Below are positions 41,315 through 64,000 of a stretch of DNA of 64,000 bases, in pieces (the stretch's first letter is position 1; each line of letters opens with the position of its first letter). The stretch spans positions 1 to 64,000 of the forward strand of contig JAQWOT010000226.1 in the NCBI GenBank assembly GCA_029245725.1, written 5' to 3'. This DNA is from SAR324 cluster bacterium (GTDB lineage Bacteria; SAR324; NAC60-12). The notes below the pieces were generated by a model. That model ran no database searches. It worked only from the letters and a program-made list of their open reading frames with translations, and was not told where the DNA came from. Made by a program: the position numbers and the translations under genes.

Positions 41315-44300
41315 CTAGTTCTCTTTGATGGCTTTATTGCGGTAGAATTGCAGATCCCCTGCTTCAGTGCCCACGATTAAGTCCAGATCTCCATCGGAGT
41401 CGTAGTCAACAAAAACTGGTACACCCCCAACAGGCATGCTCAGCTTGGCGAGGGGTCCATCATTCAGTTTCCACCCCCATGGGGTATCTTGGGTAGCATC
41501 TGCGGGACGAAATTCGATCAGTCGGCCTCCATCAGAACCGACAACCAACTCATTTTGTTGATCATTGTTAAAGTCAGCAAAGACTGGTACGGCACCCAGC
41601 CCAACGTCTAGATCAAGAAATCGTCTATGGTAGAGCCGGAATCGAAAACCTGTACCATTGGCTTCTTGAAGATACAGTCGCATATTGCCGCCGAAGTTGC
41701 CAAGGAGTAAATCAGCCCGACCGTCCTGATTGACATCATAGATGGCAGGGATCGAATTACGTCCGCTGGTCACACCATTCATAGGTCGTGGATCTCGGAA
41801 AAATTCTGGGAATTCCGGAGTGCCACGGTTTTCCCAGAATAGCACGCTACCGCTTTCATTGCCGACCAAGAGGTCTTTGTCACCGTCACTGTCTACGTCA
41901 GCAAAGAAGGGAGCTGCATTAGCTCCACCACTATACTTCAGAAAGTTCTCATCTATTAAATTCCAGCGATCCGATCCATTTTCTGGGTCATTTTGGAAAC
42001 TTCTTAACTCTCCTCTACGGTTCCCAACGATCAGATCTAAGTCTCCATCTCCATCCAAATCCAATAATGCTGGTACAGCACGATTCCCAAAGTTTTGCCC
42101 TGCGAATCTCTGACTCACAAGTTCATAAATGGGCTCACGAGGTAAGATTGGAGTTGGTGGAGAAACTACCTGAATTGTTGGTTCTGGGGGTAGATCAGCG
42201 AAATCCTGGCCTTCTACAATTCTTGGTTGCTCCAAGGTGTTTGCCGTCATCACTGGTTCTGGTGGAGCGATGTCTGTAGGTTGCTGCTTACCAATAAACA
42301 ACCAACTCAGCAGATGTCCATCTTCATCTCCAACTAGTAAATCCTGCTGTTGGTCGCCGTTCAGATCAACCAAGAAGGGTGCACTACTCCCCGCAGTTTC
42401 GAGGTCTTGCCAAATCTGAGCTTGTTGCTGCCAACCAAGGCTGACGGGATAGTTGGGTTGTGGTTGGTGAGTCAACAGTTGCAGCGTGCCACTGCTTTCG
42501 CCAATCAGTAAATCAGCATTCTCATCGTCATCCCACTGAAAAATTGCAGGGACTGCGTTACCGGAGGAAGACTGCGCATTCGCAAACCGAGCACTTTCCA
42601 ATACAAAATTTGCCTTTTCAGAACTCCCCTGATTTTCAAAGTAGATCAGAAAGCCTTGGCTGTTGCCCATCAGGAGATCTAAGTCAGAATCCCCATCCAG
42701 ATCACGAATCAAGGGTGTGCTGCGACTGCCAATATCAATTTTTGCAAAACGGACTTCAGCCATCTGCCAGTCTGGGCTTTCCTTGCTACCTTCATTACGC
42801 AACATGTCCAAGGTACCATCCTCACGGCCCACGAGAATATCAAGGTCTCCATCTCCATCAAGATCAGCGAGGGAAGGTGCACTGAAACTACGACCGTTCG
42901 GTGCAAGCGGAGGGACTTCCACTCTAGACCAATCAGGATCCTCAGTTCCTCCTTGATTAACGTAGGCATAGAGCGCGCCAGAGCGGCTGCCCAAGAGTAG
43001 ATCTGGATCTCCGTCTCCATCCCAGTCACCAGCGGTGACCAAGGTGTGTCGATCCTTGGGGAGCAGTTCGCCAATATTGAAGAAATTGTCGGTGACGGGC
43101 CAGTAACGATTCCGGCTACGTGCTTCTCGAGAAATGGGTGGCTCAGCTGTCTCTGTTGTTGTCTCCTCATCATTGACCACAGGTGCGTTGACCTGCATTG
43201 TGTACATGTTGCCTGGGGCTGCAGCATTGCTGGATGCCTGAGGATCAGGCACTACGTCCGGCCCAATTTCTGTTGACAGAAAGCTTGGACTTGGACGCAG
43301 GCTGCGTTCAACAATTTCCTCAAGTGTGGTTACTTCTAAGGGGAGTCCAAATCCTTCTAGCAGCGGCGGGAGGCAGTTTGGAAAAACATCAATTTGAGCG
43401 CAGGCTTCTTCCATCAAGGCCAGCGGTGCTTTCCTTGGATCGAGGTTGACTCTTCGCAAAGCCGCTACTTGCTTAAGTCCAGTAGTGATTGGATCTCGAT
43501 TTTCGTAGTAAAGAATGCGAGAGGTGCGAGTGCCAATCAGTAGCTCGGGATAACCATCTCTATTGACATCGAAGAAGCGAGGAGCAGCGAATCCACCAGT
43601 GTTGATGAAGAGGAAGCGACTAGATTCTAATTCCCATTCGGGCTGAAGCTTAGTACCTCGATTTAGGTAGAAATCAATGCGCCCTCTGGACTTGCCTACT
43701 AGAATATCTTGGTCCCCATCACCTTCCCAGTCCACGAAAGTTGGGGTTGCATCCACTTCTGGAGCAATATTACCGATCAGTTGTGTCCTAGCTTTTTCAC
43801 AACCCTTGATCCGAGAACGTTGAGAAGTCACATCTGGGCAGAAGAGTGCGCGGGTAGTAACTCCTTGATTGTAAAAAAGTTTTGTGTCTCCTTGCTGATT
43901 TCCGAGCAGCAAGTCTGCTGCTCGGTCTGCGTTGACATCACTGAAGTTAGGGACACTGTTGCCATTGACCTGAATGTTCATGTAGGCTGGAGTGACCAGT
44001 TCCAGCACAGGTAGTAGGGCGTTACCCCGATTTTGGTAGAAGAAGATGGTGCCGTCCCCAGAGCCAACAAACAAATCAAGGTCGCCGTCATCATCAATAT
44101 CAAACCAGGTAGGCGCTGCATTGGAGCCAACATCAATCACACGCTTAACGCGAACCTTGCGGCTATTTTGAACATCTTCCTGAAACGCGCTGAAATCCTC
44201 AGTTTCTAGACGGAATTGGTTGTCACCTGGATTACGAAACAGAGCGATTCGGCCATCACTTTTCCCAACGAAAAGATCTTCATCTCCATCACCATCAAAA

Positions 44301-44503
44301 TCTGCAAAGCTTAGGATGCTACGTTCAAATCCACGTGTGTAGAGTAATTGCTCTTGTCCATTCAATTTGCCGTAGTATTGACGTTGCCATTGGTAGATAG
44401 GGGCATTGTCTTCTGCAGCAGGAAGAGTGTTCGCCCCGCTTAGGCCCAAAATTCCCAGTAGGGCAGTGGTCCAGCATTGGCGGAAAGAAAGGCGGCGTTG
44501 CAT
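41315..44503 (-). CDS. Large exported FG-GAP/VCBS repeat protein
   Basis: A 1062-residue protein with an N-terminal signal peptide (WTTALLGILGLSGANTLPAA). I count about 15 calcium-binding FG-GAP blades of the type D-x-D-x-DG-x-x-D-hydrophobic-G, for example DFDGDGDEDLFVG, DIDDDGDLDLFVG and DYDSDGDLDLIVG, enough for two beta-propellers. They are separated near residues 430-480 and 750-800 by Pro/Glu-rich linkers. There is no membrane anchor, so it is secreted or surface-associated. The gene lies directly upstream of flgI (94 bases), an unusual place. A role in adhesion or surface binding is typical of such propellers but not shown. Confidence 0.85.
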   Translation of the reverse strand: MQRRLSFRQCWTTALLGILGLSGANTLPAAEDNAPIYQWQRQYYGKLNGQEQLLYTRGFERSILSFADFDGDGDEDLFVGKSDGRIALFRNPGDNQFRLETEDFSAFQEDVQNSRKVRVKRVIDVGSNAAPTWFDIDDDGDLDLFVGSGDGTIFFYQNRGNALLPVLELVTPAYMNIQVNGNSVPNFSDVNADRAADLLLGNQQGDTKLFYNQGVTTRALFCPDVTSQRSRIKGCEKARTQLIGNIAPEVDATPTFVDWEGDGDQDILVGKSRGRIDFYLNRGTKLQPEWELESSRFLFINTGGFAAPRFFDVNRDGYPELLIGTRTSRILYYENRDPITTGLKQVAALRRVNLDPRKAPLALMEEACAQIDVFPNCLPPLLEGFGLPLEVTTLEEIVERSLRPSPSFLSTEIGPDVVPDPQASSNAAAPGNMYTMQVNAPVVNDEETTTETAEPPISREARSRNRYWPVTDNFFNIGELLPKDRHTLVTAGDWDGDGDPDLLLGSRSGALYAYVNQGGTEDPDWSRVEVPPLAPNGRSFSAPSLADLDGDGDLDILVGREDGTLDMLRNEGSKESPDWQMAEVRFAKIDIGSRSTPLIRDLDGDSDLDLLMGNSQGFLIYFENQGSSEKANFVLESARFANAQSSSGNAVPAIFQWDDDENADLLIGESSGTLQLLTHQPQPNYPVSLGWQQQAQIWQDLETAGSSAPFLVDLNGDQQQDLLVGDEDGHLLSWLFIGKQQPTDIAPPEPVMTANTLEQPRIVEGQDFADLPPEPTIQVVSPPTPILPREPIYELVSQRFAGQNFGNRAVPALLDLDGDGDLDLIVGNRRGELRSFQNDPENGSDRWNLIDENFLKYSGGANAAPFFADVDSDGDKDLLVGNESGSVLFWENRGTPEFPEFFRDPRPMNGVTSGRNSIPAIYDVNQDGRADLLLGNFGGNMRLYLQEANGTGFRFRLYHRRFLDLDVGLGAVPVFADFNNDQQNELVVGSDGGRLIEFRPADATQDTPWGWKLNDGPLAKLSMPVGGVPVFVDYDSDGDLDLIVGTEAGDLQFYRNKAIKEN

Positions 44504-44623
44504 AAGATGAAACGGTAAGTGGGGGTTGTTTGGTGGGGGCAGTGTTGCAAGACCTACGCCCGTTATCGGCGCTTTTTACAGGTCAATTTTTGATATGGAT
44601 GCGGGTTGTTTCAGCTGTGATGG

Positions 44624-45883
44624 CTACGGGCAAGTCAGGCGGCCACGGAACGCTTTTCCGTCGAAGAGAGCAACCTTAGCTTGTTGGGGTAATGCGACCA
44701 TCAGGTCCAACCTTCCATTACCATCAACGTTTTCAATGATTATGTCTCCGGGAGTGTCTCCCTGCAGATGGTGGGTTGCGGCAAATAATTCCGGACTTTT
44801 GTAGGCCCCAGTTCCACGAGCAGAAATGCCATTGCTGAGGACCAGTGCCATGTCTCCGGAGAGCGTCGTGACCGAAGTGAACACAACAACAAAGCGGTTG
44901 CTGATTACGAAATCAAGAACTCCATCCTCATTGAAATCAGCTACGTCAAAAGATGAGGGACCGCGTCCAGCCGGCAGGTCAAACTGGTTTCCAAAATTTC
45001 CAGACCCATCACCATACCAAATCCGAAGAACTTCTGCACTACGACTACTAACTGCCAGATCCTGTCTGCCATCACAGTCGAAATCAGCTACCTCCAATTG
45101 TTGAGGAGAACTGGGTGTATCTAAATCTGTAGCTTTTTCGAAGGTTCCATCTCCCTTGCCCCTCCATAGTTGGAGGAGGTTTTCACCGACAGAGAGGGAA
45201 GCCAGATCGGCTACATTATCTCCATTCCAGTCGCCCTGTACTAATTGCTGAGGAAAGTCGGCAGTGTCCAAAGAAGAAGCTGTCGTGAAATTGTCATAAC
45301 CGTTGTTGAGCAGTATCGAGATAGAATCTGTCCCACGATTGGCAACGGCAATATCTTTTCGCCCATCATTGTTCCAATCTCCGGCTTGCAGAGAGATGGG
45401 TGTTAATTCAACGAATTCAGTATGGTTGTCATCCAACCAATTTGGGCCCTTGAGCAGTTGCAGATAGACACTTTCAGATTGGGTCAGCATTAAGTCATTG
45501 TGGCCATCAAGGTCAAAATCTTCGATGACGAAAGACTGGTGCCAGTGGGGTTCGTTTGGGATCCAAGACGGCAGGTCGTCAGCTTGCAGCCATTCACTGG
45601 ATTGAGGTTGCAGGGTAAAGGCTTGAATCCTCCCATCATCTGTGGTGCCCGAACCCTCGCTGCGTTGTGGGACAGGAACGAGTAGCTCAATATCTCCATC
45701 ATTGTCCCAATCGCTCCGAATCAGCTGAGCAGAACCAACCGGGAGAGATTGTTCTCTGGGTGCAGAAAATTGATCATTCATCACTGTTGAGGGAGGAGCG
45801 TCCTCTTCAATAAGATGATCACCAGAGCGACAGGCGAGTAGGCTCAGCAAACAGAGAAAGGACAGCGCATGGAGGAGTTTCAT
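44624..45883 (-). CDS. FG-GAP repeat lipoprotein
   Basis: A 419-residue lipoprotein precursor with signal peptide and lipobox LSLLAC (Cys18), followed by about seven FG-GAP/VCBS repeats such as DWDNDGDIELLVP, DFDLDGHNDLMLT and DFNEDGVLDFVIS. It would form one surface- or periplasm-facing beta-propeller. The start ATG at 45883 overlaps the stop of the EAL-like gene (ATGA), so the two are co-translated. The next gene downstream is the larger FG-GAP protein, suggesting a shared system. Confidence 0.83.
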   Translation of the reverse strand: MKLLHALSFLCLLSLLACRSGDHLIEEDAPPSTVMNDQFSAPREQSLPVGSAQLIRSDWDNDGDIELLVPVPQRSEGSGTTDDGRIQAFTLQPQSSEWLQADDLPSWIPNEPHWHQSFVIEDFDLDGHNDLMLTQSESVYLQLLKGPNWLDDNHTEFVELTPISLQAGDWNNDGRKDIAVANRGTDSISILLNNGYDNFTTASSLDTADFPQQLVQGDWNGDNVADLASLSVGENLLQLWRGKGDGTFEKATDLDTPSSPQQLEVADFDCDGRQDLAVSSRSAEVLRIWYGDGSGNFGNQFDLPAGRGPSSFDVADFNEDGVLDFVISNRFVVVFTSVTTLSGDMALVLSNGISARGTGAYKSPELFAATHHLQGDTPGDIIIENVDGNGRLDLMVALPQQAKVALFDGKAFRGRLTCP

Positions 45884-46878
45884 TCTTGCAGCAAACCTTT
45901 GAAAAAAAGCCCATAGTCTTCGGGCAGATAGTCTTGAATCATACCGAAGTAGCGATCCCAAGGAGGTAGGGGCAACCGTTCACGGCTCTGGTAGTAGAGA
46001 GCGGTCTCGGAGTTATTCCAATTCTCTTCGAGGAAATACTTGAGTGGGGAGGTCTCTCCAAGACCTTCGAACACGATCACGGGTGAATTATTTCCTCGAC
46101 AGTAGTTCTCGTAGTGTTCCAGCAGGCGGTTGCCCAAGCCCTGTTGCAGGTAGTCTTCCAGCACTCGAGTGGCCTGAAAATCAATCTTGATCCAATCTGC
46201 CAAGTCAATCAGCCCGTTGTGAACATCCTGATTCATCTTGTTTGAATCATCCAATGCCAGCCGAATGCCCAGATCCTGAGAGAGGTTACGAATTGTTGGT
46301 AGATAGTCCGGAGTGATCAATTCGTTGACCTCAAAATAGAACATGCTCTGATATTCGGGAAAGAGCTGGAGCAGGTTCTTCAGTGCCCGTGGATAGTTAA
46401 GATAATCTGCATCCACATTTTGGGTGAACATCAGCGCTGGCATGGGCTGATTATCCATCTTCATCTGTCGACGTAAGAGCCGGATGGTTAGAAACGTGGC
46501 AATCAGCGAAGAGAAGCGCAATAGCACTGAGGGAATCTCTAGTTCCTTGCATTGCTTGACAATCTTGCCAAAGCTCTGTCCAGAACGATCCATGGCTAAC
46601 AATTCGAATCCCTTGGTTGGGGACTGGGGAGATTTCGGGGCCAGAGCGTCGATCGACTCGGCTTTGATTGCTAGCCATTTTAGATATTGTCGAGCCCGTT
46701 CACTCAGAGAACTCCATTCTTCTGCCAGCAGTGTCCCCAATAGTTCTGCAACCACATCTGGAAAGCATGGGAAGGGCAGTGAAGGTGGCAAGGGAGTCAC
46801 CACACTACAGGCAAGATGCTCGGGTTCCACTGCCTGCCAAGCGGTTTCAGACCAGAATCCATCGGAGATTTGGTTCAT
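45880..46878 (-). CDS. Degenerate EAL-domain protein
   Basis: A 332-residue cytoplasmic protein. Residues about 145-305 follow the EAL phosphodiesterase fold, but with eroded motifs: FEVNELITP (normally ELTES), LALDDSNKMNQDVHNG (normally LDDFGTG), DWIKIDFQAT (normally KIDRSF) and IVFEGLGETS (normally AEGVE). The opening EAL tripeptide is not recognisable. Some acidic ligands remain, but c-di-GMP hydrolysis is doubtful; a c-di-GMP sensor or protein-protein role is more likely. The N-terminal 140 residues match nothing I know. It follows dnaB by 18 bases and overlaps the FG-GAP lipoprotein gene. Confidence 0.7.
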   Translation of the reverse strand: MNQISDGFWSETAWQAVEPEHLACSVVTPLPPSLPFPCFPDVVAELLGTLLAEEWSSLSERARQYLKWLAIKAESIDALAPKSPQSPTKGFELLAMDRSGQSFGKIVKQCKELEIPSVLLRFSSLIATFLTIRLLRRQMKMDNQPMPALMFTQNVDADYLNYPRALKNLLQLFPEYQSMFYFEVNELITPDYLPTIRNLSQDLGIRLALDDSNKMNQDVHNGLIDLADWIKIDFQATRVLEDYLQQGLGNRLLEHYENYCRGNNSPVIVFEGLGETSPLKYFLEENWNNSETALYYQSRERLPLPPWDRYFGMIQDYLPEDYGLFFKGLLQE

Positions 46879-52996: not shown

Positions 52997-53841
52997 TCAG
53001 GAGAGATCCGAAGCAACTTTTGGCAAAGTTTCCTGCTGCAGCTGAATCCAATCATACCACTCCTCCATTCCTTCTCCTGTTGTTGCAGAGACCTGTAAAA
53101 TCTTCAGAGTAGGGTTGATCTCCAAGGCTGCTGTGAGACAGCGATCCAAATCAAATTGTAGGTAGGGCAGTAGATCTACCTTGTTCAGCAGCATCAATTG
53201 AGCGGCCCGGAACATGTGTGGATATTTCAGCGGTTTGTCCTCCCCTTCGGTGACAGAGAGGATGACGACCTTGGCCCATTCGCCGAGGTCAAACAAAGCA
53301 GGGCAAACCAGGTTGCCCACATTCTCCAAGAAGAGCCGGTTGCTTTCGTGCAAATGGAGCTTATCGACTCCCCTACGTAACATGTCTGCTTCCAGATGAC
53401 AGCCCGTGCCCGTATTGATCTGGATTACCTCACAACCAGTCGCCCGAATTTGTTCAGCGTCGTGTAGGGTGGTTTGTTCTCCTTCCACTACTGCGATCGG
53501 TAGTTCTCCCTTCAAATCAGATAGAGTTTTTTCCAAGAGAGTGGTTTTGCCCGAACCGGGAGAGCTGACCAAGTTCAGTACACAAATTCTTTGCTCTGCA
53601 AACCGGGCACGATTCTCGGCAGAAAGTTGGTCATTCTTAGCCAGTAAATGAGTGCCTAAAGGGATGACACGGCCTTGCTCGTCATGGATGTGCTCATGGG
53701 TGTGATTGTGATGCTCATGGCCGTGCTCATGGTGATGATGGCTGTGTTCGTGACTGTCAGCAGGGCTATGTGGTGAGAGTGAGCTTGGAGTCCGTCAATC
53801 ATGATTGGTGAACGTCCCTTCTGTAGATGAGTCATCATCAC
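52997..53841 (-). CDS. hypB: Hydrogenase nickel incorporation GTPase HypB (reading frame broken near the N-terminus)
   Basis: The GTPase domain is complete: SSPGSGKTTLLEKTL (P-loop), VEGEQTTLHDAEQI, TGTGCHLEAD, ENVGNLVCPALFDLGE and LLNKVDLLPY. It delivers nickel to NiFe hydrogenases. In front lies a His-rich stretch (SHEHSHHHHEHGHEHHNH) and HDEQGRVIPLGTHLL. That frame has no ATG, GTG or TTG between an upstream UGA and the P-loop. A second frame, starting at 53841/53838 with AAGGAG five to eight bases upstream, encodes the preceding part (MTHLQ to LQAHSHH). A single lost base near 53775 would join them. Before that, TGT-TAG-ACT-TGT-GGC-TGT looks like a ruined HypB CxxCGC start. Confidence 0.8.
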
Positions 53842-53876
53842 TGCTGCTCCTTCGGAACAGCCACAAGTCTAACAAA

Positions 53877-54206
53877 TTAGCTAAGCTCCATTTCCTTGAT
53901 GTTGAGTTGGTCTCCGGAGCGAACAGCCAGCGAGGCAGATCCGCAGTCACAGACGTCGTAAAGTTGCTGCACGGTGAATTCGAGACCACAACGGCGATAG
54001 GTAACTTCACCCTCTGGTTCCAGTATTTCGAGTTGTGCTCCAGCGAGCAGTGTATTTTCGGTACAGGCTCCGAAACAGAAGTGGATTGCCTCAGCCATGA
54101 CGCCGCTCAGCTTGCCAATTTCCAGAGTGACCCTCTTGACTCGTTGTCCTTGGGCGTGTTCTTCAACAATGGCCACCAGGTTTTGAGTGATGCTGAGTTC
54201 ATGCAT
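53877..54206 (-). CDS. hypA: Hydrogenase maturation factor HypA
   Basis: A 109-residue HypA that carries nickel with HypB. The N-terminal MHELSITQNLV includes the Ni-binding Met-His-Glu. The usual structural zinc site is two CxxC pairs; here the first reads YRRCGLEF, with Tyr in place of the first Cys, and the second reads CDCGS, a CxC, so one ligand is lost and one spacing is changed. The start overlaps the hypE stop by one base (TAATG). The gene is otherwise of normal length. Confidence 0.93.
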   Translation of the reverse strand: MHELSITQNLVAIVEEHAQGQRVKRVTLEIGKLSGVMAEAIHFCFGACTENTLLAGAQLEILEPEGEVTYRRCGLEFTVQQLYDVCDCGSASLAVRSGDQLNIKEMELS

Positions 54207-55225
54207 TAGCAGATTCGTGGAAGCTGCTCACCGTAGAGCACATCGACAACCCGTTCTCCTCCAAAGGCAGTCTGAAGAATGACACGTCCCTTAGGAGATT
54301 CTGAGACAACTCCTATCTGGCAGCTATGCTGGCCAGCTGGGTGAGCACACATGGCACTTAGTACGGCCTCTGCCTGATCAGCAGGAACGAGAGCAACGAG
54401 AGTTCCTTCATTGGCCAAGTAGAGCGGATCTAGTCCCAGGATTTCGCAGACCCCCTGAACTACTTCACGAACTGAAATCTGTTGTTCCCAGAGGTGAATG
54501 CAGACTCCAGAATCCTGGGCAAATTCGTTCAGAACGGTCGCGATTCCTCCCCGAGTGGCATCACGCAGGCAATGAATCTCTGGGCAAACTGTGAGCATCT
54601 CAGCGATCAGGCCATTCAGTGGCTGGCAGTCACTCTCTACGGGAATTTGCAAGGAAAGCTCACCCCGTGCATCAACGATGGCAGCGCCGTGATCTCCGAG
54701 GAAATGATTGACTAAGACAGCATCACCAACTTCAGCTCGCCACGAAGTGATGTTTCGATTTTCTGGCAAAAAGCCAATTCCAGCCGTATTGATGAATAGC
54801 TGATCTGCCGCGCCTTTCTCAACCACCTTGATATCTCCTGTGACGATCTGTACTTGGGCCTTGGTTGCGGCAGTAGCCATAGAGGCTATAACCTGCTCCA
54901 GTACCGACAATTCCAGTCCTTCTTCGAGAATCAATCCGCAACTCAATACCTGAGGAATCGCACCACTGACAGCCAGGTCATTTACGGTTCCATTGATCGC
55001 CAGTTTGCCGATGTCACCACCCGGAAAGAAGAGCGGTTGCACAACAAAGCTGTCGGTTGTGAAGGCGATTCGATGTCCTGGTGGGGGTGATAATTCTGCA
55101 TGATCTTGCAATCCCTTGGGATCAGGTTTGCCAAAGTGTCGGAGGATTGTTCCTTCAATCAAGCTACGAGTAGCGCGTCCACCACCTCCATGTGCCAGGG
55201 TGATCGTATCCCGGGCGTCACTCAT
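54206..55225 (-). CDS. hypE: Hydrogenase maturation protein HypE
   Basis: A 339-residue AIR-synthase-fold protein that dehydrates the thiocarboxamide on its C-terminal Cys to make the cyanide ligand of the NiFe site. The protein ends in PRIC, the essential C-terminal motif. LAHGGGGRATRSLIEGTIL, TDSFVVQPLFFPGGDIG and LRDATRGGIATVLNE are family hallmarks. It overlaps hypD (ATGA) and hypA, so the unit is tightly coupled. The HypF partner that supplies carbamoyl groups is not in the window. Confidence 0.97.
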   Translation of the reverse strand: MSDARDTITLAHGGGGRATRSLIEGTILRHFGKPDPKGLQDHAELSPPPGHRIAFTTDSFVVQPLFFPGGDIGKLAINGTVNDLAVSGAIPQVLSCGLILEEGLELSVLEQVIASMATAATKAQVQIVTGDIKVVEKGAADQLFINTAGIGFLPENRNITSWRAEVGDAVLVNHFLGDHGAAIVDARGELSLQIPVESDCQPLNGLIAEMLTVCPEIHCLRDATRGGIATVLNEFAQDSGVCIHLWEQQISVREVVQGVCEILGLDPLYLANEGTLVALVPADQAEAVLSAMCAHPAGQHSCQIGVVSESPKGRVILQTAFGGERVVDVLYGEQLPRIC

Positions 55226-56364
55226 AAGGTGGCTTCCACCTCGGCTTGTTCACGCCAGCGAGAACCATAGTTGTAGTAGGCGGCACAGGCACCCTCAGAA
55301 GAGACCATCAAGGCCCCGATTGGATTATCGGGTGTACAGGATTTGCCAAAGACCTGGCATTGCCAGGGTTTGAGCCGCCCCTTGAGTACCTCACCACACT
55401 GACATTCAGCAGGATCAACAACGGGAACATCCCGAACGGCAAAGACCTTCTCAGCATCAAAATCTACAAATTCTGGTCGCATCTCCACCCCCGATTCAGG
55501 GATCGAACCCAGGCCCCGCCACTCGAATTGTTCACGTAGTTGGAAGACTTGATCCATGGCCTGTTGCGCAGCCAAGTTGCCTTGGGTAGGAACAACTCGG
55601 CGGTACTGATTCTCTACCTCACAGCGTTGTTCCTCAAATTGTTTGAGTAACATCCAGACCGACTGCAGGATATCCAAGGGTTCAAAACCAGCAACAACAA
55701 AGGGTTTCCGATGTTCAGAGGCGATAAAATCGTACCCTTCGGTACCAATAATCATGCTGACATGTCCAGGCCCAATGAAACCATCGAGGCGTAGATCCGA
55801 ATCAGCGAGAATTGCCCGCAAGGTTGGGATGATCGTGATGTGATTACAGAACAGGAAAAAGTTTGGGATCTGCTCTGCTTTAGCCTGTAGCACAGTAAAA
55901 GCGGTGCTAGGCATCGTTGTCTCGAAGCCGAGTCCAAAGAACACCACATTGTGCTCTGGATTGTTCCGTGCCAACTGAAGAGCATCCATTGGTGAATAGA
56001 CCATCCGGATGTCCTGACCAGCAGCCTTGGCCTGCAGCAGGCTCTTGTGAGAACCAGGAACCCGCATTGCGTCACCGAAGGTCGTCAGAATCACATCTTC
56101 GCGTTCTGCAATCGACACACAGTCGTCAACGCGGTTCATTGGTAGCACACAGACGGGACAGCCTGGGCCATGAATCAGATCGATTCCCCTAGGCAGCAAT
56201 TCTTCCAAGCCAAACTTGAAGATCGTGTGCGTATGACCGCCACACACCTCCATCAGGCGGATTGGTTTTTCAGCTGTGGCGTTGAGTTGTTGTGTCAGGT
56301 GTTCAATGCCTTGAAGGAGAAACTTTGCCTTTTCAGGATCACGAAATTCCTGAATGTATTTCAT
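55222..56364 (-). CDS. hypD: Hydrogenase maturation protein HypD
   Basis: A 380-residue iron-sulfur scaffold on which, with HypC, the Fe(CN)2CO centre is built. Conserved motifs are MEVCGGHTHTIFKFG (the catalytic Cys and His), GPGCPVCVLP, GFETTMPSTAF and GPGHVSMIIG. The C-terminal cluster ligands occur in VDPAECQCGEVLKGRLKPWQC and SSEGACAAYYNYG. Length and motifs are normal. Confidence 0.97.
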   Translation of the reverse strand: MKYIQEFRDPEKAKFLLQGIEHLTQQLNATAEKPIRLMEVCGGHTHTIFKFGLEELLPRGIDLIHGPGCPVCVLPMNRVDDCVSIAEREDVILTTFGDAMRVPGSHKSLLQAKAAGQDIRMVYSPMDALQLARNNPEHNVVFFGLGFETTMPSTAFTVLQAKAEQIPNFFLFCNHITIIPTLRAILADSDLRLDGFIGPGHVSMIIGTEGYDFIASEHRKPFVVAGFEPLDILQSVWMLLKQFEEQRCEVENQYRRVVPTQGNLAAQQAMDQVFQLREQFEWRGLGSIPESGVEMRPEFVDFDAEKVFAVRDVPVVDPAECQCGEVLKGRLKPWQCQVFGKSCTPDNPIGALMVSSEGACAAYYNYGSRWREQAEVEATL

Positions 56365-56373
56365 CGGACTCTC

Positions 56374-56661
56374 CTAGTTGACGGCTTGTAAAGAGGTCTG
56401 TGCTTCGTGCCATTCATCCTGCATTTCACCGAGTTTGGTGAGAAGTTCTAGGGTTCGCTGTGCTTCCTGTGGGTCAATGCGACTCATCGCAAAGCCCACG
56501 TGAATCAGGACCCAGTCGCCGATCAGTTCTTCCAAGTCATTCACGTCGTTTTGCAGGCAGGCGAGATTGACGGGTCGTCGGAGTCCACCCACACTGACTT
56601 CTCCAAGAAACTTGGACTTGTCGATAATTTTTTCAATTTGACCAGGGATTCCTAAACACAT
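56374..56661 (-). CDS. hypC: Hydrogenase maturation chaperone HypC
   Basis: A 95-residue HypC/HupF that starts with the hallmark MCLGIPGQI, whose Cys2 (after Met removal) binds the iron precursor. DWVLIHVGFAMSRIDPQEA is the conserved C-terminal core. AAGGAAAA lies before the ATG. It is the first gene of the hypCDEAB unit and carries whatever promoter controls it in the upstream gap. Confidence 0.97.
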   Translation of the reverse strand: MCLGIPGQIEKIIDKSKFLGEVSVGGLRRPVNLACLQNDVNDLEELIGDWVLIHVGFAMSRIDPQEAQRTLELLTKLGEMQDEWHEAQTSLQAVN

Positions 56662-57719: not shown

Positions 57720-58466
57720 TTATGTCTTAGGCACATGAACAAAGTATTTCAAATCACACTTGCTCCAGTAAAACTCCTCAAAGTTAACATTATAAATTTC
57801 TTGTAGAGAAATCACATTCATAATTTCTTTACATTGTCCATGCTGCTTTTGGCCAAAACCTAACATCATGAGTTGCTCACAGTGATGATAAGCTTGGTTT
57901 GGATCATGTGTAGAAAATACAAATGTTAGTGCGTTTGTTTCCTGTAGTTTCGTCAAAATTGCAAATAGTTTTTCTTGGTTCTGCAAATCCAAAGCAGAGC
58001 TAGGTTCATCCAAGATGAGCAAATTGCATTCGGAAGTGAGAGCTTGTGCAATCAACACGAACTGTTTTTGGCCTCCACTTAGTGTCATGAAAGAGGTTGT
58101 TGCCAGATGCCCGAGCGACATCATCTCTAACCATCTTTCTGCCTCTGCACGATCGATAGAATTTGGCTGCTGGTACCATTTGAGATATCGGGTCCGCCCC
58201 AGTAAAACCATCTCAAGAACATCTAGGTCGCTCTTAAGGTTTATATCTTGAGGCAAAAACGCAACTGTGCCCTCAACTGTTACACTTCCCGATGCAGGAC
58301 GATCGAGTCCAGCCAGTATCCGAAGCAACGAGCTTTTGCCCACACCGTTGGGTCCAACAACTCCTAAACTAGAGCCTTTAGGAAGTTTGAAATCCAGGCT
58401 CTCGATCAGCTGCTTTTTCCCTCTTTGTACTGCTAAATCTGAAGCAGCTAGGATCGTCTGATTCAT
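57720..58466 (-). CDS. ABC transporter ATP-binding protein (iron-chelate/B12/metal type)
   Basis: A 248-residue ATPase with Walker A GPNGVGKSSLLRILAG (about 36-51), Q-loop FLPQDI, signature LSGGQKQFVLIAQAL, Walker B LLILDEPSSALD and the switch His in FSTHDPNQAYHH. It belongs to the FepC/BtuD/ZnuC-like group. It ends a three-gene importer unit with a FecCD permease and a periplasmic binding protein. Because that unit is continuous with the CooC-like and hydrogenase maturation genes, nickel or a nickel chelate is a reasonable substrate guess. Confidence 0.92.
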   Translation of the reverse strand: MNQTILAASDLAVQRGKKQLIESLDFKLPKGSSLGVVGPNGVGKSSLLRILAGLDRPASGSVTVEGTVAFLPQDINLKSDLDVLEMVLLGRTRYLKWYQQPNSIDRAEAERWLEMMSLGHLATTSFMTLSGGQKQFVLIAQALTSECNLLILDEPSSALDLQNQEKLFAILTKLQETNALTFVFSTHDPNQAYHHCEQLMMLGFGQKQHGQCKEIMNVISLQEIYNVNFEEFYWSKCDLKYFVHVPKT

Positions 58467-58469
58467 ACC

Positions 58470-59459
58470 TTAGGATTCCAGCCTCCGCCGAAGTAGATAC
58501 GCAAAAAAAGGAGCACCAATAAGTGCCGTGATTACTCCGAGAGGAATCTCCATTGAACTTAGCCCTCTGCAAAGATAATCAATGATCATCATGTAATAAG
58601 CTCCGATGAATGCAGAAACGATCAAGAGAGAGAAATGATTGGATTTTGAGAAGTTTCTTGCAATGTGAGGTACGACAAGCCCAACCCAGCCGACGACTCC
58701 AGCGACAGAAACTACGCCAGCACAAATGACTGTAACCAGGCCTAAAACTGACCAACGATTACGCTCTACATTCAAACCGAGTGATTTGGCATGATCATCA
58801 CCGAGGTTTAGTACATCAATGCGATATCCCAGGATAATTAACGCGAGCAGTGCGATCAGTATGAGAGGGCCAACGAGTTGAATCTTGGCATAACTTGCTG
58901 TCGCAAAAGACCCCATTAACCAGTAAGTGATTGCGGGAAGCTTATCATCAGGATCTGCAATGAACTTTACCATGGAGACTAAGGCCAGGAAAAAGCTACT
59001 TGAGACAATTCCTGCTAGCACAAGTGTTAGTCGGCTTGTGTACCCTTGCACTCTTGCCACGACAAAGACCAAAATCATTGCGATCAACCCGAACAGAAAA
59101 GCAAGCGATAGTGTGAGGAAACTGTTCTCAGAGATGAGAATTCCAAGAGCTCCCCCAAACGCCGCACCAGAATATACCCCGATAATCTGAGGGCCAATCA
59201 GAGGATTAGCAAAGACTCCTTGCAGTGCACAACCACAAGCTGCTAACCCAGCTCCACAGATCATGGCTGTGAGTGCGCGTGGAATTCTAATGAGCAGTAT
59301 TACCCGCTCAACAATCACGTCTAATTCGAACGTGGGATGGAAGAGGTTGACAAGAATTTTGCCAAGATCAGCAACGGAGGAATTGAGTTGACCTGATGTA
59401 ATATATAGGACCGGGATAGTCACTGCGAGAAGAACTAATCCCAGTTTTTTCAGAACCAA
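58470..59459 (-). CDS. FecCD-family ABC transporter permease
   Basis: A 329-residue integral membrane protein with about nine to ten transmembrane segments, as in BtuC/FecCD. Family motifs are RIPRALTAMICGAGLAACG, then GVFANPLIGPQIIGVYSGAAFG, and GVVSVAGVVGWVGLVVPHIARN, the segment contacting the ATPase. It forms the homodimeric channel of the importer and lies six bases after the binding protein gene. Confidence 0.95.
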   Translation of the reverse strand: MVLKKLGLVLLAVTIPVLYITSGQLNSSVADLGKILVNLFHPTFELDVIVERVILLIRIPRALTAMICGAGLAACGCALQGVFANPLIGPQIIGVYSGAAFGGALGILISENSFLTLSLAFLFGLIAMILVFVVARVQGYTSRLTLVLAGIVSSSFFLALVSMVKFIADPDDKLPAITYWLMGSFATASYAKIQLVGPLILIALLALIILGYRIDVLNLGDDHAKSLGLNVERNRWSVLGLVTVICAGVVSVAGVVGWVGLVVPHIARNFSKSNHFSLLIVSAFIGAYYMMIIDYLCRGLSSMEIPLGVITALIGAPFFAYLLRRRLES

Positions 59460-59465
59460 TTTCGA

Positions 59466-60518
59466 TCACTTGAATAAGTTTGTATATCCTTTTGATCCAG
59501 CATTCATTTTCATTTTTAGAATCTCATTTAGATCCGAATCAGTAGCATCAGTCTCATAGAGCATCTTGTAAGAACGTTTTATCTCACCACGGAGTGGATA
59601 GCTGTGGTGCTCTGGATAGGTTAGCATCCCTAGCCACATCCATGTCAAAGGTGACTCCTGATTAGGAGGATCCCAACGATATCCTCCAAGTGGCATGGCG
59701 TAAACGGTCTTATTGATCGCTGCATCAGTTACTGAAAAGACAGGGTGTTCGATGTAATCTTTGGGAGAAAGTTTTGGTTCGAATCCATTCATCAGGACTA
59801 TGTCTGGATTCCAAGCCACGACCTGCTCTGGGGTTGCATTGTAGAACCCTTTGTTTCCTGCAGCAGGATTGATCCCACCTATGAGATTGATATAGAAATC
59901 GTTATAGGTTCCTTTGCCAGCAACCTGTAAGTTGTTTTTGAATAGCCGAAAATAGAGAACATTTTTCTTCTCCTGGATCTTGGCTGAATTGGTTTTGACT
60001 TCTTTCAGGGTCTGTTCACGCCAATTCACCATTTTCAGCGCCTTGTCTTCCTTACCAAGTACGGTTGACATGATCCGAATCCACTCTCGTGCGTCTTGTT
60101 CATTCCGAATCTTAATAGCTGCCACATTTAAACCAGCGTTGGTCAAGGGATCGAAGATTTCATCTCCATAGTTTCCCCATTGAAAGACCAAATCTGGCTT
60201 CAATGCTAAAACTCCCTCAATGTTGGGCATAAAGTTGAATCCACCACCAACAAAATCACTGGGTAATTGAAGCACTTCTGGGAAAAGCCTACCGAGAAAC
60301 CGACCTTTCATAGCAGTTTTGGTAAGCTGATGCACTCCCACTAATTTGTCAGCTGAACCGTCGATGGACATGAACATGGAGGGGGCTGGAATAGGGATGC
60401 TGACCACTCTCTCGACTGGATTTTCAAATCGGATTGTCCGGCCCTTTTGGTCGACTACTTCTAGAGCACTGGCTAAAGTGGCCCAAAACATACAAATTGT
60501 GATTAAGAAACTTCTCAT
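59466..60518 (-). CDS. Periplasmic substrate-binding protein of the metal/chelate ABC importer
   Basis: A 350-residue class III (FhuD/BtuF-like) binding protein. A signal peptide (FLITICMFWATLASA) has no lipobox Cys, so it is a free periplasmic protein. VVDQKGRTIRFENPVERVVSI and ALKPDLVFQWG are the standard N-lobe pattern, and PEQVVAWNPDIVLMNGF the C-lobe one. The ATG at 60518 overlaps the upstream stop (ATGA). The ligand cannot be read from sequence; context suggests nickel. The nearest neighbours in my memory include iron-chelate and molybdate-type binders. Confidence 0.9.
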   Translation of the reverse strand: MRSFLITICMFWATLASALEVVDQKGRTIRFENPVERVVSIPIPAPSMFMSIDGSADKLVGVHQLTKTAMKGRFLGRLFPEVLQLPSDFVGGGFNFMPNIEGVLALKPDLVFQWGNYGDEIFDPLTNAGLNVAAIKIRNEQDAREWIRIMSTVLGKEDKALKMVNWREQTLKEVKTNSAKIQEKKNVLYFRLFKNNLQVAGKGTYNDFYINLIGGINPAAGNKGFYNATPEQVVAWNPDIVLMNGFEPKLSPKDYIEHPVFSVTDAAINKTVYAMPLGGYRWDPPNQESPLTWMWLGMLTYPEHHSYPLRGEIKRSYKMLYETDATDSDLNEILKMKMNAGSKGYTNLFK

Positions 60519-61075
60519 AGCCCTATGTTGCAAATTTCGTTAGAAGGCGCTGGAAGGACACGTTGACACATCTCCCATTGTAAAACTCGGACCTCTGCAG
60601 GAGGAAGTTTACCAGCATTCCTGAGATGAACTGCTTCTAAAAATTCATCTCGTACAACACCTGGTTTGATACCTAGGTGGAAACGGGCTCCCGGACATGT
60701 AACCTCAAAGGCATAAATGCCAGAAGAGGCATTTGAACACTCAACAGATACTTCAGTCTCTGGATCAAAGGTAAACCCAGTTTCATGATCTGGTTGAAAA
60801 AGATAATTGAAGGCATCTCTCATCCCTTTTCCACCAAAGGCTCCTCGGATCTTAACCCCAGTTTTTGGAATTGCTCCGAGGCCTTGTTCCAAAAGGCATT
60901 GTGAGAGTTTGAAACCGAGTGAGAGTCCACACAAGGCCGATCCAGAATGATACTTTAGGAAGTCACCAAAGTGATATGGATATCCCCAGGTGATTTCTAT
61001 GTTTTCGTTTAGTGGAAATTGGCTGGCCCACTCAACTAGGCCAGCCTGTGTTGGTGGTTTGGGAGTCAAGCTCAT
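60515..61075 (-). CDS. Hypothetical protein, weakly FmdE-like
   Basis: A 186-residue soluble protein. The stretch KYHSGSALCGLSLGFKL (about 41-57) resembles the HGHxCxGxALGYR start of FmdE-type domains, and GKGMRDAFNY could match their GKGN region, but the match is weak. Several other cysteines (VECSNASS, EVTCPG, WEMCQ, EICNIG) could bind metal. It is coupled on both sides by ATGA overlaps, to the CooC-like gene before and the importer after, so it belongs to this pathway. A metal-handling role is inferred from context. Confidence 0.55.
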   Translation of the reverse strand: MSLTPKPPTQAGLVEWASQFPLNENIEITWGYPYHFGDFLKYHSGSALCGLSLGFKLSQCLLEQGLGAIPKTGVKIRGAFGGKGMRDAFNYLFQPDHETGFTFDPETEVSVECSNASSGIYAFEVTCPGARFHLGIKPGVVRDEFLEAVHLRNAGKLPPAEVRVLQWEMCQRVLPAPSNEICNIGL

Positions 61076-61848
61076 CCTTTAGCCAAAATCCAATCTGCAA
61101 TTTGACCGATTGCCTGCATGGATGGGGCTGCTGGATTGAAGTCGATCGGTGCAATTGCTTTCCTTTCGGATTCAATCAAGTTTTCATCATGGGGAATAGT
61201 CGTGATGATTGGCATAGAATGTTGCTTACAGAATGTCTCGATGGCTTCCCGATCTGCTTCTGTCCTTACCTTGTTAGAGACAGCATAGAGATGAGGAATC
61301 TTTAGCTCGGTTGCCAGCTTAAATGTCCTCATTCCTGCTTCTAAAGAACGATAATAGGGCTCTACCACGATCAGCATCATATCCACATTCTTTGCGGTTC
61401 CTCGCTTGAGATGCTCCAAACCTGCTTCCATATCAGTGACTGTGTGTTTTCCGTAGCCAGTCAGTTCTACGATGAGGCCGCGCACCGCACGGTGAGATGC
61501 ACACATTCAACCACTGCCAGCGGTTCCATCTGCAGGGTGACCCATGACGATCAGATCAATATTATCAGGTGCCTTTGAGCCGTATTGCTGAAATAGATCT
61601 GATTGAGAAAGTGTCATCTTCAGCACTCGTTCTCCAGCTTCGTCCTCTTCTAATTTCATGACTGTATGAGGGATGAAATTAATATTTCCGGCATCTTCTC
61701 GGCTAATTCCTAAGGTCAGTGCTAAATTAGGATTGGGGTCGCCATCAATAGCCAGAATTTTCTCCTGACGGCTAGCCAGCATTCTTGCTAACGTTCCAGC
61801 AAGAGTAGTTTTCCCAGAACCACCTTTACCAACAGTTGCGATTCTCAT
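61072..61848 (-). CDS. CooC-like nickel-insertion ATPase with an in-frame UGA at the CxC motif
   Basis: Read through one UGA (61509-61507), the frame encodes about 258 residues of a MinD/ArsA-type ATPase like CooC, which inserts nickel into carbon monoxide dehydrogenase and related enzymes. The deviant Walker A GKGGSGKTTLAGTLA starts the protein, followed by AIDGDPNPNLALTLGI. After the UGA come LIVELTGYGKHTVTDMEAGLEHLKRGT (given in parts: TDMEAGLEHLKRGT) and MMLIVVEPYYRSLE. The UGA sits in TAGSG-UGA-MCASH, where CooC proteins have GCxC. So either selenocysteine replaces the first Cys, the gene is split with a TGAATG restart, or the base is wrong. Both ends overlap neighbours as ATGA. Confidence 0.8.
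61479..61509 (-). other. In-frame UGA with possible SECIS-like hairpin
   Basis: The UGA is at 61509-61507. Downstream, TGTGC (+4 to +8) can pair with GCGCG (+24 to +28, two G-U), and ACC with GGT around a GTGC loop starting 16 bases after the UGA; five bases bulge on the 5' side. A G at the start of the apical loop and a 16-base distance are compatible with the loose bacterial SECIS rules, but such hairpins are easy to find by chance. Confidence 0.3.
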
Positions 61849-62369
61849 GTTGCTCCTGATTTTTGTTGATGGAAATGATCTTCAATCATTTGTTGGAGTA
61901 GCTGTACTGCCTCAGGAATAGCTCTTGAGACAACTTTTGAGAGTTCTAGTGTGCATGGTTCAAGACTGCTTGGCTCACAGGCTAAAATTCTTAGATAGGG
62001 AGGCAATTTACCTATATTTTTTAAAAATTGAAGAACCCTAGCTGGGGTAGCATAGTGTGTATCTGCGAAGTAATCACGCTGTTGCTGAACGTTCAAGGCC
62101 AAGTCTTCAACCACAGGCTCAAGTACTCTTAGTGTGCCAGGTGGAAACTTTTCTTCGAAAGCATCAACTAGAATCAAACCTTGGTAACTGAGCAGCATTT
62201 CCTGAATAATGTTGATGCCTCCAATCCCAGTTTCCATCAACTTTAGACCAGTCTGGGGAGTGTGGCTTTGTTGATAGCCTTGAACAACAAGTGGACCGAA
62301 GGCATCGTCAGAATTCAACATGTTGCCCACTCCTGCAACAAGCAACTGATGCTGTGCAATCAAGAGCAA
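61845..62369 (-). CDS. Hydrogenase maturation protease (HyaD/HybD/HoxM family)
   Basis: A 174-residue endopeptidase that trims the C-terminus of a NiFe-hydrogenase large subunit after nickel insertion. VAGVGNMLNSDDAFGPLVVQ contains the conserved GxGNxLxxDDxxG motif, whose Asp binds nickel, and LILVDAFEEKFPPGTLRVLE contains the second Asp. TGIGGINIIQEML matches the middle motif. It overlaps the CooC-like gene (ATGA). Its presence argues that a NiFe hydrogenase is encoded close by, outside the window. Confidence 0.9.
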   Translation of the reverse strand: MLLIAQHQLLVAGVGNMLNSDDAFGPLVVQGYQQSHTPQTGLKLMETGIGGINIIQEMLLSYQGLILVDAFEEKFPPGTLRVLEPVVEDLALNVQQQRDYFADTHYATPARVLQFLKNIGKLPPYLRILACEPSSLEPCTLELSKVVSRAIPEAVQLLQQMIEDHFHQQKSGAT

Positions 62370-62373
62370 TCTT

Positions 62374-63087
62374 TCAGAAACTGGGGAGTTCAGGAATGAA
62401 GGGCATATCGAGGCCGATCAAGATTCGTGGGGATTCCTTCTTGACTGGATAGCAGCCAAGGTAGGCGTCACTACCTAATCGTGCTCCGTTACGGATATCA
62501 TACAAGCAACCTTGGTGGTGAGGGCAAACCAGGGTATAGCCATCGATCTGAGCACCAAACATCAACTCATGGTTAACCATGCACTCTGCTGAAAATGCGT
62601 AGATTTTCCCCTCAACAAAACAGAGAAAAATGAAAACATCTTCGATCTGATCTGAATAGAGTAGGCCAGCTGATAGATTTTCTGCATTGTGACGGCTGGG
62701 AATCCACCGTGCCACCTTGCGAGAGTTGAGAGAGACACTTTGTGAGTCACCACCACTACAGCTTGATGCTGTAGGGAGTAGATCATATAGATCCATCAGT
62801 GTGCGAATAGGTGGATCTGTGATGACCTGCTCCATGACTCCGTCTTTGAATAAACGAACCAGACGAGTCAGAGATTCACGATGAATCTGATCGAGAACGT
62901 TCAACAATTCAAAAACTCGACGTCGTGCCGGATCGTCTTCGATTTGCTCTAGGGAGGAGACCAAGTAGTCAGCCCTAGCTAACAACTGATCCCATTCCTC
63001 ATTGGTCATGAATCCACGCAGGGCTTGTGGCTCAAATTCCTGCGTATTCTGGTCAGTGATGTTTGCAGCGGCTATGGTCGTCTCCAT
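62374..63087 (-). CDS. Rieske-like protein of the hydrogenase accessory cluster
   Basis: A 237-residue protein. The first 110 residues are helical and resemble the N-terminal part of NifU/Rieske-type proteins found with group 1h-like hydrogenases (RLVRLFKDGVMEQVITDPPI, with the ITDPxIRxLMxLYDL style). The C-terminal 80 residues have TLVCPHHQGCLYDIRNGARL, with a Rieske-type Cys-x2-His at 188-191; the first ligand pair would be Cys169 and His173, spaced by three residues instead of one. It could hold a 2Fe-2S cluster passing electrons from the hydrogenase. A start at the internal ATG at 63009 would avoid the 35-base overlap with the upstream gene. Confidence 0.65.
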   Translation of the reverse strand: METTIAAANITDQNTQEFEPQALRGFMTNEEWDQLLARADYLVSSLEQIEDDPARRRVFELLNVLDQIHRESLTRLVRLFKDGVMEQVITDPPIRTLMDLYDLLPTASSCSGGDSQSVSLNSRKVARWIPSRHNAENLSAGLLYSDQIEDVFIFLCFVEGKIYAFSAECMVNHELMFGAQIDGYTLVCPHHQGCLYDIRNGARLGSDAYLGCYPVKKESPRILIGLDMPFIPELPSF

Positions 63088-63391
63088 CGCAACACCCGTC
63101 TACACATTCATAGTGTCCGGGTTGCTGCATCTCATTGAATGATTCGATAAATAGTTTCCCACCTTCCTTGGTACCTGCCTCTAAAAACTGATAGCTACCG
63201 CTAGGAGTCTGCTCCATTCGTCCTGTTCCGCACAGTTCCTGTAAAATCATCTCCACCTGGTCAGTAGGCTGATTCAAGAAAGGACTGAGTGTCTGTGCTG
63301 TAAATTCATTCCCAAATCCTTCCCCTTGGTACCAAAAGCAAATCTCGAGGATTTCCTCCTTATGCACCAATTCATCAAGTGCAGTGCTCAT
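63053..63391 (-). CDS. Hypothetical protein with a Cys/His-rich tail
   Basis: A 112-residue protein. Residues 1-80 look like a small winged-helix-type domain (EEILEICFWYQGEG, FLNQPTDQVEMILQELCG). The last 18 residues, ECVDGCCDGDDHSRCKHH, hold four Cys and three His and look like a metal-binding tail. It begins directly at the preceding stop (TGAATG) and overlaps the Rieske-like gene. I do not know the family; a nickel-storage or sensor role is a guess. Confidence 0.6.
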   Translation of the reverse strand: MSTALDELVHKEEILEICFWYQGEGFGNEFTAQTLSPFLNQPTDQVEMILQELCGTGRMEQTPSGSYQFLEAGTKEGGKLFIESFNEMQQPGHYECVDGCCDGDDHSRCKHH

Positions 63392-64000
63392 TCAATTTAC
63401 ATAGTTGAGATGTTGCTTGAATTCATACTTGGTAAATAGTTCTGAGTCTACGAGATCATTGACGGACTTATCCAGAATAGCTTCTCGGCCAGAAGCCCCA
63501 TACTGTGCTACAGACCAGGCTAGATCAGCAACTTTTTTGCGGACAACATCGGGGTCGAAGCCAAGAATTTCCAGTAATTCTTCCTCTTTAGAGCCCATAT
63601 TTTCAGCCATTACAATTTCTCCAAAAGCATCTCCGGGTAGATCTACCTCTACCGTAAAGACTTCCTTTGGCCACACTTTGAAGTAGTCCCCAATGACCAG
63701 TGTGTTGTCGAGTGAGACAACACCGGTAACTCCTTCGTACATCCGCTCCTGCAACTTCAATGTCGACATCTCTCCTCCGATCCACTTGTAGACAACAACA
63801 TTACCAGGCCGCAGACAACCAGCTGAACTTCCAATGAGAACAGTGCGATCGTAAATGGTCTTATGGTCTTGTAGTCGTTGGGTGACGTGAATCGGACTCC
63901 AAGTCATGTTCTCAACTTCGATGATCGTGGATCCCCAATCTCTATCCTGTAAGTCCTGCATCAACAGCGGTCCAAGGGGATAGCGGTCGAGGATAGGAGA
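63392..64000 (-). CDS. Unknown protein of the hydrogenase accessory cluster (5' end outside the window)
   Basis: The last 202 codons of a gene that continues past the right edge: the frame is open to 64000, reading SPILDRYPLGPLLMQDLQ. The visible part has no signal peptide and no motif that I recognise. It contains a beta-rich middle (VLIGSSAGCLRPGNVVVYKW, EVFTVEVDLPGDAFGEIVM) and a helical end (LLEILGFDPDVVRKKVADLA). An internal ATG at 63961 follows a TTG at 63964, but coding similarity of the upstream part argues these are not starts. It is coupled to the next gene by TGAATG. Confidence 0.6.
   Translation of the reverse strand, partial: SPILDRYPLGPLLMQDLQDRDWGSTIIEVENMTWSPIHVTQRLQDHKTIYDRTVLIGSSAGCLRPGNVVVYKWIGGEMSTLKLQERMYEGVTGVVSLDNTLVIGDYFKVWPKEVFTVEVDLPGDAFGEIVMAENMGSKEEELLEILGFDPDVVRKKVADLAWSVAQYGASGREAILDKSVNDLVDSELFTKYEFKQHLNYVN

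Follow-up and report, generated by a model that had tools for sequence, protein, structure and literature searches.

The window (the whole 64,000-nucleotide stretch of SAR324 cluster DNA analysed here) carries a cooC-like gene whose product is very probably a selenoprotein, with selenocysteine (Sec) replacing the first metal-binding cysteine; Sec insertion itself is inferred from the sequence. The joint reading, to which we assign a probability of roughly 0.88, is of a full-length CooC-like selenoprotein with an Se2S2 site that takes part in nickel handover, and within it the insertion, the metal and the client enzyme are all inferences.

A cooC-like frame with a single internal UGA

The gene was read on the minus strand from 61848 to 61072 as one frame of 258 codons, interrupted once, by the UGA of codon 114 in the context TAGSG-U-MCASH, and closed by a terminal TGA (Table 1); its translation is MRIATVGKGGSGKTT...HPADGTAGSG-U-MCASHRAVRGL...ILAKG-stop. 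Under the standard code the same frame falls into two ORFs (113 and 144 residues) that meet at TGA-ATG, and genes of this kind are likely to be annotated as two broken halves. The first-pass annotation had reported a single-UGA frame of about 258 codons with correct coordinates, without giving the strand, and had called the product CooC-like with the UGA in place of the first CxC cysteine. That identification is borne out by alignment: among solved proteins CooC1 of Carboxydothermus hydrogenoformans is the closest (E=6e-34), the UGA aligns with the first Cys of its C-x-C (GSQCYC), and the second motif Cys is present. Conservation is equal on the two sides of the UGA, at 49% before and 50% after it against 60 relatives and at 60% and 62% against the 21 closest.

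The predicted fold (model built from 23 relatives, mean pLDDT 86.8) has CooC1 (3kje) as its top structural match, with low confidence in the loop 110-113, just before the motif. Of the features that mark CooC-type ATPases, a deviant Walker A motif (GKGGxGKTT) and a MinD fold nearest CooC1 are both present, whereas the strictly conserved Cys-x-Cys is matched only in its Sec-x-Cys form. None of the NCBIfam models scored above cut-off for the protein, and at E<=1e-20 the source genome holds one CooC-like gene, that of the window. Reading of UGA as Trp under another genetic code was considered and rejected, because the cooC-like gene itself and other window genes stop at TGA.

Table 1. Positions of the features discussed, in window coordinates.
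Feature	Position	Strand	Basis
cooC-like MinD/CooC-type ATPase, candidate selenoprotein	61072..61848	-	sequence, alignment, predicted fold
Deviant Walker A GKGGSGKTT, codons 7-15	61804..61830	-	sequence and alignment
In-frame UGA, codon 114, first Cys of CxC (GSG-U-M-C-ASH)	61507..61509	-	sequence, alignment
SECIS-like hairpin CCGUGC[GGU]GCGCGG, 15-29 nt after UGA	61478..61492	-	coincides with the hairpin conserved in other UGA homologues
Operon protein, conserved, function unknown; runs on to contig position 64048	63392..64000	-	synteny
Rieske-like protein, conserved neighbour in relatives	62374..63087	-	Cys/His motifs only; no Pfam match
HycI-type hydrogenase maturation protease	61845..62369	-	PF01750, 3e-13
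Unknown conserved gene, overlaps end of cooC-like gene	60515..61075	-	conserved
ABC importer, cobalamin/siderophore type (ATPase, permease, binding protein)	57720..60533	-	
hypB, hypA, hypE, hypD, hypC	52997..56661	-	sequence features and relatives' synteny

The two abutting ORFs could instead be two genes, an N-terminal half of 113 residues and a C-terminal half of 144, joined at TGA-ATG by translational coupling. A TGAATG junction does occur in the same operon, at 63391/63392, and the codon after the window UGA is ATG; that Met, however, is what Cys-type relatives normally have between the two cysteines (C-M-C), and the ribosome-binding sequence before the ATG amounts to at most three bases, whereas the real start has AGGAG. 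In other UGA homologues the next codon is CTC, CTG, GCT or ACC, and no ATG, GTG or TTG follows until codon +8 or later, with the exception of the Actinomycetota locus L109 (+4). A two-gene architecture among homologues, which would have overturned the selenoprotein reading, was looked for and is absent: no relative was found split in this way, and elsewhere no start codon directly follows the UGA. We regard a coupled gene pair as very improbable.

Selenocysteine machinery and the hairpin after the UGA

All four sel genes that the first-pass annotation had named for a search are present in the source genome: selA (434 bits), selB (349 bits), selD (382 bits) and a tRNA-Sec(UCA) (61.8 bits, also called as tRNA-Sec by ARAGORN, anticodon TCA). 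The selD gene has one in-frame TGA of its own, at TCGUAAK, the known Sec place of that enzyme. Although selA sits on a contig of 4 kb, contamination is an unlikely source of this system, because the SelB shares 48-50% identity with its counterparts in two same-family genomes.

The machinery also follows the UGA form across genomes. Counting the window's, 21 genomes have the UGA form, and 17 of them gave a selB match above the family cut-off; of 29 genomes with a close Cys relative, one did (Fisher P≈1e-8). When three same-class selB genomes with only distant CooC genes are added to the Cys group, its count becomes 4 of 32 and P about 1e-6. Missing selB in the remaining 4 of 21 UGA genomes is presumably due to incompleteness, and tRNA-Sec was found in three of these four. 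In a further test within Chloroflexota, selB was present in 4/5 newly found UGA genomes and 1/3 Cys genomes, and tRNA-Sec in 3/5 and 1/3, respectively. These P values overstate independence, since the genomes are mostly incomplete assemblies and are related in groups.

The weak SECIS-like hairpin that had been proposed to follow the UGA is present, but is local (+15 to +29). Its stem has an energy of -8.7 kcal/mol, against -3.3 kcal/mol expected for synonymous recodings (P=0.023), it ranks among the most stable 24-nt stretches of the gene, and its loop starts with GG; bacterial SECIS loops usually have a G within the first two places. A wide 71-nt fold is not exceptional (z=+1.3), and the local hairpin is the informative unit. 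The hairpin of the other UGA homologues occupies nt 16-30 past the UGA (for example GCUGC[CGUGC]GCAGC, GCCAC[CGUGC]GUGGU and GCUGC[GGUUC]GCAGC); that of the window is a form of its own, shifted by one base.

Mean energy at this place is -8.4 kcal/mol in UGA homologues versus -2.6 kcal/mol in Cys genes. Across the UGA homologues 77 pairs were seen, where synonymous recoding that draws on the codons of each gene itself predicts 50.9 (sd 3.6; z≈7), pair cells changed on both sides and the covariation score exceeded all 500 shuffles (0/500), and sliding the partner by 1-3 columns destroyed the pairing. In 21 Cys relatives with the HRAVRG peptide the mean is -6.7 against -6.1 expected, with no sign of selection in the hairpin region, and in a few Cys relatives (L038, L043 and L053) local stems are as stable as the window hairpin. 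Related sequences were counted as independent in the hairpin test. Selection on the hairpin is strongly supported when the UGA homologues are taken together, but only modestly for the window gene alone.

Recurrence of the UGA and origin of the window copy

UGA was found at the same codon in 26 homologous genes elsewhere, from Acidobacteriota, Chloroflexota, Actinomycetota and two genomes of the window's own family (GAG-U-ACGSH). Of 78 loci obtained from 84,980 species genomes, 19 have UGA at this codon and nearly all others Cys; the UGA contexts were GAG-U-LC in Acidobacteriota, U-LC and also U-T-U in Chloroflexota, and U-LG in one Thermoleophilaceae. Relatives were obtained from 40 of 400 Chloroflexota genomes scanned, and the nine closest comprise six UGA copies (one already known) and three Cys copies, the surroundings of the codon being closely alike (GAGKG-U-LCGQH versus GAGKG-C-ICGQH). 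A class-wide search of 52 genomes yielded no relative closer than the two same-family ones, and a plasmid collection yielded one distant relative only. Judged from these genes, the Sec form is recurrent and not a lone oddity, occurring in at least three named phyla and in the window's own family.

In a tree built without the motif columns, the window gene nests in an otherwise Cys-only Pseudomonadota clade (22 sequences, 99% SH-aLRT), at a wide distance from every other UGA copy. Parsimony requires five Sec/Cys changes, at least three of them forced by well-supported branches; long branches leave the deep placements unsure. Because of this nesting, Sec in the window gene is best explained as a separate switch from Cys.

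The same placement bears on another account, in which an ordinary Cys-type cooC-like gene has acquired the UGA through a mistake in sequencing or assembly or through a nonsense mutation of recent date. The window copy is the only UGA copy among the 22 sequences of its clade, and it is known from a single draft assembly, which leaves a base error possible; all other members have TGC or TGT, and TGC is one base from TGA. Such an event would nevertheless have had to hit by chance, in a Sec-decoding genome, the very codon, out of about 258, where UGA recurs elsewhere, and neither the remaining frame nor the operon is disrupted. We consider this account unlikely, and the selenoprotein reading is retained.

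Several relatives have further variants of the motif. A tandem CooC-like paralogue in Chloroflexota (L128/L140, about 7050-7800, minus strand) contains two UGAs, as PG-U-P-U-C-GVS, its counterpart in L099 reads PG-C-P-C-C-GVS, and the neighbours of the paralogue, near a hydrogenase small subunit, are a copy with U-T-C and a third P-loop copy. Both cysteines are replaced (U-T-U) in CooC-like genes of L055 (7200-7208) and L107 (4068-4076), the former lying directly after a Cys-type (C-M-C) copy. In Actinomycetota (L109:6319 and L106) the motif is U-L-G or C-L-G, the second Cys being lost and the first being Sec or Cys. A further CooC-like copy in L140 (10956, plus strand) looks frameshifted just before the motif.

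Hydrogenase neighbourhood and inferred role

The neighbourhood is that of a hydrogenase and not of a CO dehydrogenase. Upstream on the minus strand lie, in order, the HycI-type protease, the Rieske-like protein, unknown conserved genes, the hydrogenase large and small subunits (contig 64035-65915 and 67469-68716, respectively) and hypF, and downstream lie hypC, hypD, hypE, hypA and hypB; the same genes flank most Sec and Cys relatives. The nearest solved relative of the large subunit is HofG of R. eutropha, known as a group 1h enzyme. The large subunit beside the cooC-like gene is 76% identical to that of Marinovum algicola FF3, which is stated to encode a group 1l enzyme, and group 1l has been reported in SAR324, Bacteroidota and Proteobacteria (PMC10305171). 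The adjacent enzyme is accordingly described here as a putative group 1l/1h-type [NiFe] hydrogenase, without formal classification. Large subunits beside UGA genes keep their ordinary cysteines (DPCMPC), and no stop was found inside alignments of 48 large and 33 small subunits searched for Sec.

Cys-type CooC-like proteins of group 1l clusters (for example L036-L054, among them Marinovum algicola FF3, L052; Hymenobacter roseosalivarius, L077) have the same operon partners and are 58-65% (Pseudomonadota) or 42-46% (Bacteroidota) identical to the window protein; they differ from it in having TGC or TGT at the first position, in genomes almost always without selB. The fold, the Walker A motif GKGGxGKTT and the place of the motif are shared with CooC1 (3kje/3kjg/3kjh/3kji), which has Cys-x-Cys and serves CO dehydrogenase, whereas the window protein has Sec-x-Cys beside a [NiFe] hydrogenase. 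In [NiFeSe] hydrogenases Sec is a nickel ligand and belongs to the catalytic large subunit; for the window protein a like role in hydrogen metabolism is only proposed, and Sec belongs to an accessory protein while the large subunits keep Cys.

In the mechanism we propose, the UGA would be read as Sec by the host SelA, SelB, SelD and tRNA-Sec, aided by the following hairpin, to give a dimeric MinD-type ATPase related to CooC. CooC1 is a nucleotide-driven dimer in which each monomer contributes two strictly conserved cysteines, Cys112 and Cys114, to a metal site at the interface, with one nickel bound per dimer (Kd about 0.4 uM) (PMC6006190); by analogy, Sec114 and Cys116 of two subunits may form an Se2S2 metal site, and ATP binding and hydrolysis would drive its opening and closing. 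Nickel would then be passed to the HypA/HypB machinery or directly to the adjacent hydrogenase large subunit, in a step additional to HypA and HypB and not replacing them, since both genes are present. Any advantage of Sec to an aerobic H2 oxidiser is inferred, and would be that of a softer ligand less prone to irreversible oxidation. No selenium or nickel biochemistry stands behind these steps, so that nickel binding, the identity of the metal, the role in maturation and the client enzyme remain inferences.

Sec decoding would also be compatible with another role, as a redox or regulatory thiol-selenol switch or as a Zn or Fe-S ligand, with no part in nickel transfer. NifH-type ATPases, which hold an Fe-S cluster between their subunits, share the fold and are fold relatives of the model. 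Sec redox motifs are moreover common in selenoproteins (PMC13188914), and CooC1 structures contain zinc at the CxC site, although CooC1 also binds Ni there (PMC6006190). The neighbourhood, however, is devoted throughout to Ni-enzyme maturation, and Sec-x-Sec, found in some relatives, is no less suited to metal ligation than to redox chemistry. A role other than nickel transfer is possible, if the less likely assignment. With nickel handover kept as the preferred role, we lean, with some reserve, towards a wider interpretation in which selenium nickel chaperones have evolved repeatedly, with Sec-x-Cys, Sec-x-Sec and tandem-paralogue Sec-x-Sec-Cys sites at the dimer interface, for selenium-free [NiFe] hydrogenases that oxidise trace H2.

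No paper describing a CooC-type selenoprotein was found in a search limited to open-licence PMC papers, and the CooC/MinD type is absent from the 119 prokaryotic selenoprotein families and subfamilies inventoried in a 2026 review (PMC13188914). Nearest in kind there is a CobW-related selenoprotein (NF041053, UxxC), likewise a P-loop NTPase with Sec in a metal-handling protein, but of another family and motif; CopZ family and SO_0444 proteins, predicted metal-handling selenoproteins of other families, are not of the MinD/CooC type either (PMC13188914). The present gene would add a probable family missing from the most recent inventory we found (PMC13188914) and enlarge a sparse class of selenoproteins, that of NTPases for metal delivery, as opposed to redox enzymes of the thioredoxin fold. 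It suggests a use of selenium in nickel delivery in addition to that in the hydrogenase active site, which would link selenium supply to hydrogen oxidation, and the natural Cys/Sec pairs allow the effect of Sec on nickel binding to be measured directly.

Two further features of the window were recorded. The importer listed in Table 1, of BtuC/FecC type, lies directly downstream, and it may bring in nickel or a nickel complex, because its binding protein also adjoins a Cys-form cooC-like gene in L046 and L049; the Chloroflexota relatives L066 and L140 have SBP_bac_5-type importers beside the cooC-like gene instead. At 41315-45961, next to flagellar genes, two large FG-GAP-repeat-like proteins of 1062 and 445 aa are encoded.
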